From the NCBI GenBank assembly GCA_022749995.1, contig JAKIWO010000004.1:1-54143 (forward strand): DNA of 54,143 nt, read 5' to 3'. Both the position numbers and the translations under genes were made by a program. Shown here piece after piece: positions 28,527 to 54,143 of this stretch. The notes beneath the pieces were generated by a model. It saw only the letters and a list, made by a program, of their open reading frames with translations. It did not search any database and was not told where the DNA came from. The DNA is from Thermoplasmata archaeon (lineage in GTDB: Archaea; Thermoplasmatota; Thermoplasmata; Lutacidiplasmatales; UBA184). How positions within the stretch are numbered: the first letter of the stretch is position 1; each line of letters begins with the position of its first letter.

Positions 28527-28627
28527 GCCGCCGTAGCTCAGTGGCAGAGCGATCGGCTGTTAACCGAAAGGTCAGCGGTTCAATGGGTCCGGAGCCCGCT
28601 CCGGACCGGAAACTCCGCTCGGCGGCG
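28527..28627 (+). tRNA. tRNA-Asn(GTT) with a 29-nt insertion (probable intron) in the T-loop
   Basis: Acceptor GCCGCCG/CGGCGGC, anticodon loop CTGTTAA (GTT), T-stem AGCGG (28574-28578) and CCGCT (28615-28619) separated by 36 nt instead of 7. Confidence 0.88.
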
Positions 28628-28641
28628 CCCTCTCGGTGCGT

Positions 28642-28714
28642 GGGCCCGTAGCTTAGTGGTTAGAGCGACCGGCTCATAACCGGTCGGTCGGCGGTTCGAG
28701 TCCGCCCGGGCCCA
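28642..28714 (+). tRNA. tRNA with CAT anticodon (elongator Met most likely)
   Basis: Acceptor GGGCCCG/CGGGCCC, anticodon stem ACCGG/CCGGT with loop CTCATAA, T-arm GGCGG-TTCGAGT-CCGCC, discriminator A. Confidence 0.92.
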
Positions 28715-28908
28715 TCAGTTGGGGCTCGAAAGCGTGCCATGAGCCACGGTGTGAACACCGTACGGACCGATCCGGCATGGCTCGAGGAGGCTTCCGCTCA
28801 TCGGCCAGCCGATGCGGCTCGACTCGGTAACGTCCGACCCCCCGTGGGCGCGGGAGTGCCGGCGAGCCCGAAATCCGCCGAGGAGCGATGGCGGGAAGCG
28901 ACCGGGGA

Positions 28909-52774: not shown

Positions 52775-52939
52775 CGACCCCCTCCTCCGCACGGCTCGCG
52801 TGCTCCCTGCCAGTGAGCGCGCGATTCGTGCACTCGTAGAGGCCGGGGCCTCTCCGGGGAAGGGCGGTGGCCCCCGCGGGAGCGGACGGCCGATGACGCC
52901 AATCACACGCGTTCTGGACGCTTGTCAAACGCCATCAGA

Positions 52940-54143
52940 GTAGCTGACTCCTGTCAGTTGGGGAATGGCTGGGCTCGGGCGCCGACGAAGGTCGTGCCAA
53001 GCTGCGATAAGCGGTGGGTAGGCGCAAGGAACCTGCGATCCACCGATTACCGAATCGGAACTCCGGACCCTTAGGGGTCATTCCGAAAGGAAAGGGAACC
53101 CCCCGAAGTAAAGCATTCTAGTAGGGGGAGGACAAGAAATCAACAGAGATGCCGTTAGTAAAGGCGATCGAACACGGCAGAGGACAAACCGAATCCCCGC
53201 CCGGTGAGGGCGGGGAGATGTGGAGTAGTGGACCTCCGCACTCGCGGGCTTCCGGAGCCGAACGCGCCTGGAATGGCGGACCATAGGGGGTGAAAGTCCC
53301 GTAGGCGAACGGAAGAGGCGAGACTGGAGGTATCCTGAGTACCGTGCGTTGGATATCGCGCGGGAAGCTGGGAGGTACAGACTTCCAATCCTAAATACGT
53401 CCCGAGACCGATAGCGCAATAGTAGTGCGAACGAACGCTGAAAAGTACCTCGGAAGGGAGGTGAAAAGAGCCTGAAACCAACTGATGACAAAGCCGCATG
53501 AGGTCCCTAAGGAACGAAGCGGGCGCAAGCCCGTGGACACAGGATCCATGCGTCCGTTTTGAATAACGGGCCAGGGAGTTTCGATCCATGGCAAGGCGAA
53601 GGCCCTCAACGGCCGGAGCCGCAGGGAAACCGACAGTCCGCAGCGCCGCAAGGCGTGAGGGACGGGGTGCGCTCGCCCGAAGTCATGGGTGGAAGACCCG
53701 AAGCCAATCGATCTAAGCGTGGGTAGGTTGAAGCCTGCCGAAAGGTAGGTGGAGGACCGAACCGGTGTTGATGTGCAAATCACTCGGATGACCTGTGCTT
53801 AGGGGTGAAAGGCCAATCTAGACTGGGAATAGCTGGTTCCTCTCGAAACTACTCGCAGGTAGGTCTCGGCCGAGCTGGCTCGGAAGGTAGAGCACCGATT
53901 ACGGGACCTGGGACCGAAAGGTCTCAGCCTGTTGTCGAACTCCGAACTTCCGTGCAGCGTAGACGCCGGGAGTGAGCGCTGCAGGGGTAAGCCCGCAGTA
54001 CGAAAGGGAATGCAACCCAGCCTCGCATTAAGGGCCCCAAGTGCCGGTTCAGTGTTATGCAAAGGGCGTCCGTGTTCGAAGACAACTGGGAGGTGGGCTC
54101 AGAAGCAGCCATCCTTCAAAGAGTGCGTAACAGCTCACCAGTC
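52940..54143 (+). rRNA. 23S rRNA, 5' portion (truncated by window end; 5' boundary approximate)
   Basis: gggaatggctgggctcgggcgccgacgaaggtcgtgccaagctgcgataagc ... ggtgaaaagagcctgaaacc ... gaatagctggttcctctcgaaa; conserved 23S domain I/II motifs. Confidence 0.96.

Follow-up and report, generated by a model that had tools for sequence, protein, structure and literature searches.

Most archaeal tRNA introns lie at position 37/38, and introns in the T-loop are best known from the Crenarchaeota (PMC4090602, PMC8450103, PMC3218864), as the first-pass annotation of the present locus had stated. Position 59/60 is one of the listed non-canonical positions, the non-canonical introns coming mostly from Crenarchaeota (PMC4090602). 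The 59/60 introns of Crenarchaeota and other archaea (PMC4090602; Sugahara 2008, cited there) share with the introns described here the position, the bulge-helix-bulge (BHB) motif and a presumed splicing by the endonuclease EndA. In the Thermoproteales, however, introns occur at many positions and often several in a tRNA, whereas here those outside 37/38 are mostly found at one position, and the crenarchaeal EndA is an (alpha beta)2 enzyme with a CSL loop, whereas here it is of the alpha'2 type without the loop. The large-scale transposition of tRNA introns in the Thermoproteales (Fujishima 2010, cited in PMC4090602) likewise concerns many isoacceptors of one lineage but very similar introns in different tRNAs, whereas here introns of different isotypes in one genome have no similarity beyond the BHB. 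The Asgard Atabeyarchaeia and Freyarchaeia are also soil archaea rich in non-canonical tRNA introns, although these are present in 92 to 95% of their tRNAs, more than half of them with several (PMC11291895), compared to about 38% and one dominant position here. The permuted tRNAs of Thermofilum pendens and Cyanidioschyzon merolae have their junction at the same place of the T-loop, 59/60 (PMC3218864), whereas the present gene has its exons in the usual order and a short intron. We found no description of tRNA introns in Thermoplasmatota or Thermoplasmata in the open-licence literature, and the paper on the Lutacidiplasmatales (PMC9287336) makes no mention of introns. Within that literature, an expansion of 59/60 introns at one position in the Lutacidiplasmatales appears to be undescribed, and the archaeal mode of tRNAscan-SE 2 may find such introns.

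The window, a 54,143-nt stretch from a Thermoplasmata archaeon of the Lutacidiplasmatales (contig JAKIWO010000004.1), carries a tRNA-Asn(GUU) gene that is interrupted in the T-loop (Table 1). The insert is very probably a genuine archaeal pre-tRNA intron at 59/60, predicted to be spliced by EndA and the ligase RtcB, and one of at least 14 in the genome, a core of which was probably inherited from the ancestor of the family.

Table 1. Position of the interrupted tRNA-Asn gene, its parts and its neighbour in the window.
Feature	Position	Strand	Remarks
tRNA-Asn(GUU) gene, interrupted	28527-28627	+	72 nt mature plus 29 nt intron; CCA not encoded
Exon 1, tRNA positions 1-59	28527-28584	+	one D-loop position without residue
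T-stem 5' strand, outer BHB helix	28574-28578	+	pairs with 28615-28619; paired in 100%; compensatory changes AU/CG/GC at column pair 49-100
Central helix 5' strand TTCA, positions 54-57	28579-28582	+	partner is intron GGAA, 28608-28611; A57-G mismatch
5' bulge, A58 U59 / G	28583-28585	+	predicted cut before 28585
Intron, 29 nt, position 59/60	28585-28613	+	boundary from empty-site homologues
Intron hairpin, 9 bp, CCCG loop	28586-28607	+	double-sided changes at 9/9 pairs
3' bulge, A C / U60	28612-28614	+	predicted cut after 28613
Exon 2, positions 60-73	28614-28627	+
tRNA-Met(CAU), uninterrupted neighbour	28641-28716	+	Asn-Met pair preserved in relatives

The arms of the tRNA are the acceptor stem GCCGCCG/CGGCGGC, the D-stem GCTC/GAGC, the anticodon loop CTGTTAA and the T-stem AGCGG/CCGCT, and the T-loop between AGCGG (28574-28578) and CCGCT (28615-28619) measures 36 nt. 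The first-pass annotation had proposed that the removal of 29 nt restores a 72-nt tRNA-Asn(GUU), which agrees with the sequence; its intron length was right, while its coordinates, 28584-28613, span 30 nt and are corrected to 28585-28613. With these nucleotides spliced out in silico, ARAGORN calls a 72-nt tRNA-Asn GUU. On the window as it stands, the program misses the gene and reports only a tRNA-Arg(CCG) and the tRNA-Met; the Rfam tRNA model gives a match of 35 bits that is interrupted at the T-loop. At 52937-54143, an archaeal 23S rRNA gene begins and continues beyond the contig end.

The helix TTCA/GGAA, the bulges AUG and ACU and the intron hairpin, which had been folded by hand, are all present, the hairpin being GGUCCGGAG-CCCG-CUCCGGACC. 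The precursor has a 3-4-3 bulge-helix-bulge with three of four pairs in the central helix, and the fold of the T-arm with the intron has a z of -3.87; ViennaRNA opens the central helix where a mismatch (mostly A57-G) is present. The 59/60 site places the intron outside the canonical 37/38 class, while the two 3-nt bulges around a 4-bp helix, the normal tRNA after removal and the EndA and RtcB genes of the host place it in the BHB class. A permuted or split tRNA-Asn was considered and ruled out, as the exons are conserved and follow each other directly in the usual order.

A DNA search of 60 relatives revealed a tRNA-Asn intron of 28 to 35 nt at the same site in 35 of the 37 family genomes, widely divergent in sequence and constant in architecture. 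Of the remaining two genomes, one (G003, 83% complete) gave no match, and the weak match in the other (G006) is a tRNA-Thr(UGU). In the 31 distinct tRNA-Asn sequences, 91.6% of the cells are paired, compared to 81.9% in shuffles and 33 to 45% with the partners slid, and double-sided changes occur at all nine hairpin pairs. The family alignment contains 93 double-sided compensatory cells versus 34.7 in shuffles (0 of 500). Other families of the class have a tRNA-Asn without insert (G042, G043, G044, G045, G051, G054, and G057) or with a 37/38 intron (G053 and G055), and the uninterrupted T-arm of G054, AGCGGTTCGAATCCGCT, is letter-identical to that of several family members after removal of the intron. 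Conservation, covariation and empty sites support the earlier proposal of a BHB-type T-loop intron in the tRNA-Asn of a non-crenarchaeal archaeon.

What that proposal missed, having seen the tRNA-Asn intron, is the scale, with at least 14 tRNA genes sharing the insertion point and the pattern extending through the family. Eight of the nine weak tRNA matches in the genome are tRNAs with a similar T-loop insert, the ninth being a tRNA-Trp(CCA) whose 87-nt intron lies at 37/38 (L117, G000:C12:6229-6498), and the tRNA-Arg(UCU), already above the cut-off of the tRNA search, has a T-loop insert, too. We searched with R2, a covariance model of the T-arm plus intron; a model built from Asn only (R1) misses several isotypes, and a full-length alignment of mixed isotypes is off-register in the T-arm. 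R2 yields 14 matches in the genome, a count that depends on the filter (13 or 14, and 12 under the strictest settings): Asn GUU, Asp GUC, Ala GGC, Arg UCU, Arg UCG, Gly UCC, Gln CUG, Glu CUC, His GUG, Leu UAG, Lys UUU, Ser GCU, Ser GGA, and Ser CGA. They make up about 38% of the tRNA genes detected (at least 14 of about 37), the total of at least 37 being composed of 34 from the tRNA search and three found by R2 alone. The identical set of 14 intron-bearing isoacceptors is found in G010. Leu UAG was assigned by eye and from its G010 counterpart because of an ARAGORN mis-call; the program also mis-calls Lys in G010, G029, and G007. One further R2 match, L276 in G029 (E 0.002), is probably spurious.

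The exact insertion point is given by G008, a 98% complete genome of the same family (genus g4) with only five R2 matches. Its tRNAs His GUG, Ser GCU, Ser GGA, Arg UCG, and Leu UAG contain no intron and have the T-loop TTCAAAT or TTCGAAT, and the same five tRNAs in the genome under study carry the intron precisely between TTCRAA and T. Among 82 introns parsed from eight family genomes, the T-stem has 5/5 pairs and U60 is present in 82/82, and A58A59 is found in 80/82; the central helix has four pairs in 34 introns, three in 47, and two in one, and the hairpin pairing is 0.85 compared to 0.43 when shuffled. The parsing presupposes the 3-4-3 frame and favours U60, so that independent support for this frame comes from slide controls and the empty sites. 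The residue at position 57 and the intron base facing it covary, G57 being matched by C and A57 by G or U (Fisher p 1e-18, a descriptive value, as the sequences are related), and strong covariation against shuffles and slides is also seen across isotypes.

These data bear on two other readings of the tRNA-Asn gene. It might be a decayed pseudogene or an assembly artefact with a chance hairpin, considering that a standard tRNA finder misses it and that the genome is a MAG (87% complete) in 95 contigs. However, the same position is occupied in 35 family genomes with compensatory changes, the remaining tRNA parts are intact, and 13 more tRNAs carry the same insertion. The first-pass annotation had named an intact second tRNA-Asn as the mark of a pseudogene; none was found in the genome at E<=10 or in the 37 family genomes. 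With the intron present in 35 of 37 genomes, no intact copy found and strong covariation in the hairpin, a pseudogene or artefact is extremely improbable. Hardly more credible is an excision at 58/59, which had been left open next to 59/60. In the window, TTCAA/CT would also give a 7-nt loop, but a cut at 59/60 yields TTCRAAT, the sequence of the intron-free homologues, in nearly all introns, whereas the alternative would give a different residue 59 for most introns and lose the symmetry of the 3-nt bulges, with U60 in 82/82.

The genome encodes both candidate splicing enzymes. The EndA gene (G000, contig C41) codes for 353 aa with two PF01974 units in one chain, the second being the catalytic unit with the conserved Tyr, His, and Lys motifs, as in alpha'2-type enzymes, and the protein aligns with the alpha'2 EndA of A. 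fulgidus (1r0v) over residues 24 to 336. In the sequence alignment, it has no CSL or ASL insert where the A. fulgidus variant 3p1y carries one, 3p1y being taken from its sequence and the literature to be the CSL-grafted enzyme; the family alignment reads [FY]GSxxGxRLxLS without insertion. The closest named relatives are the EndAs of the MAGs SubAcS9-61, AcS1-67, AcS5-116, and AcS11-62, all tabulated as Ca. Lutacidiplasmatales (PMC9287336), which suggests this name for the host. RtcB is encoded with an E-value of 4.5e-171.

A genuine intron at 59/60 suggests the following route, which is predicted from the sequences together with its cleavage, ligation and order of processing. In the precursor, T-loop bases 54 to 57 would pair with four intron bases, so that a BHB links the T-stem to the intron hairpin. 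The host alpha'2 EndA would cut each strand between bulge bases 2 and 3, and RtcB would ligate U59, which is A59 in most relatives, to U60, restoring the 7-nt T-loop. According to reviews, alpha'2 enzymes process canonical BHB motifs only (PMC6379350, PMC4033280, PMC12397907), and the A. fulgidus enzyme is reported to require them (PMC12397907, PMC6379350); another group maintains that homodimeric EndA also cuts BHL-like motifs and demonstrates cleavage of a minimal BHB by a Ferroplasma enzyme (PMC8707768). The introns keep the 3-nt bulges said to be required by the A. fulgidus enzyme, and they may do so because this type of EndA needs such bulges. Against the proposed route stands the one central-helix mismatch, mostly A57-G, of over half of the introns, given the reported need of the A. 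fulgidus enzyme for a canonical BHB.

Among the 60 relatives, R2 gives 5 to 14 matches in all 37 family genomes and 0 or 1 in 21 other members of the class. In 300 class genomes drawn, there are 4 to 13 matches in 62 of 62 family genomes and at least one, mostly just one, in 65 of 238 others. Another family of the class, f25, has up to six matches (L353-L379 in genomes G216, G113, G131, G160, G093, and G119, with L364 and L369 lacking a tRNA assignment), mostly in other tRNAs: elongator Met, initiator Met, Leu UAA, Lys, and Ser GGA. Since these are mostly different tRNAs from those of the Lutacidiplasmatales, they point to an independent expansion at the same nucleotide position. In family f11, a T-loop 59/60 intron is found in tRNA-Lys(CUU) (L095 and L096 in G047 and G058).

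Within the family, the sequences suggest that most introns descend vertically, as introns of the same isotype are more alike across genera than those of different isotypes, and pairs from the same genome are hardly more alike. A core would have come from the ancestor of Ca. Lutacidiplasmatales, probably by vertical descent, with at least some introns gained or lost since. The EndA tree, based on a single gene with modest support, separates a clade of g2, g3, g4, and g7 with 5 to 10 matches from a clade of g1, g5, and g6 with 10 to 14, and the Glu CUC, Ser CGA, and Leu UAG introns are only found in the latter. A recent spread from tRNA to tRNA inside each genome, with the shared TTCRAAT as target, as proposed for the Thermoproteales, would account for one insertion point in 14 isoacceptors and draws on a near-universal target sequence; the differing isotype set of f25 suggests repeated gain at one site, and introns of the same genome are slightly more similar (0.035 versus 0.023, permutation p 0.024). 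On the other hand, near-identical introns in different tRNAs, the sign of recent copying, were not found among the 82 introns of eight genomes (best scaled score 0.44 for different isotypes within one genome), and introns of the same isotype are more alike across genera (mean scaled score 0.122 versus 0.023, 0 of 500 permutations). We therefore consider a recent spread unlikely, while an ancient transposition of introns between tRNAs is possible. Somewhat less likely still is that the T-loop introns are kept for disrupting an integrase attachment site in the 3' part of the tRNA, the protection hypothesis that PMC3293823 attributes to Randau and Soll. Position 59/60 falls in the 3' region typically homologous to attP sites (PMC3293823), but the use of one exact nucleotide position is equally explained by the need of the intron to pair with TTCR.

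The tRNA-Asn intron is ordinary in mechanism; what is unusual is the expansion, lineage-wide and at a single position, alongside an alpha'2 EndA that lacks the loop. In current models, introns outside 37/38 are linked to an EndA of broad specificity with CSL or ASL loops, and 14 introns at one T-loop site next to a loop-less alpha'2 enzyme offer a direct test of this rule: either the canonical 3-4-3 motif matters and not the position, or the Lutacidiplasmatales EndA has widened its specificity in another way. Tentatively, and with somewhat less than even confidence, we suggest that 59/60 is a site especially open to intron gain. Nearly all tRNAs share TTCRAAT, so that any tRNA could accept an intron that pairs with TTCR and is spliced by an ordinary alpha'2 EndA of narrow specificity, as may have happened in at least two expansions within Thermoplasmata (Lutacidiplasmatales and f25). 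If so, introns could expand without the loop that current models regard as the driver of those outside 37/38. The graded series of intron-bearing and intron-free copies in the family makes gain and loss traceable. Many tRNAs of the family genomes are overlooked or wrongly called by simple tRNA finders, which would distort statements on these genomes that are based on tRNAs.

Some tRNAs of the class seem to carry more than one intron. The tRNA-Lys(UUU) (L259, G000:C36:1170-1420) and tRNA-Leu(UAG) (L260, G000:C6:19950-20200) of the genome under study each seem to have, in addition to the T-loop intron, another one in the D-loop, and the Lys D-loop insert is also found in G010, G029, and G007 (L290, L272, and L312) and in the class-mate G058 (L248). 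A tRNA-Lys(UUU) from another family of the class (L234, G040:C258) has apparently three introns, in the D-loop, anticodon loop, and T-loop. Several T-loop introns of the order-mate G038 (L103, L247, L252, L256, and L258), mostly in tRNAs with another intron, have only 13 to 14 nt, unusually short for archaeal tRNA introns, and lack the hairpin, a short loop closing the central helix instead.
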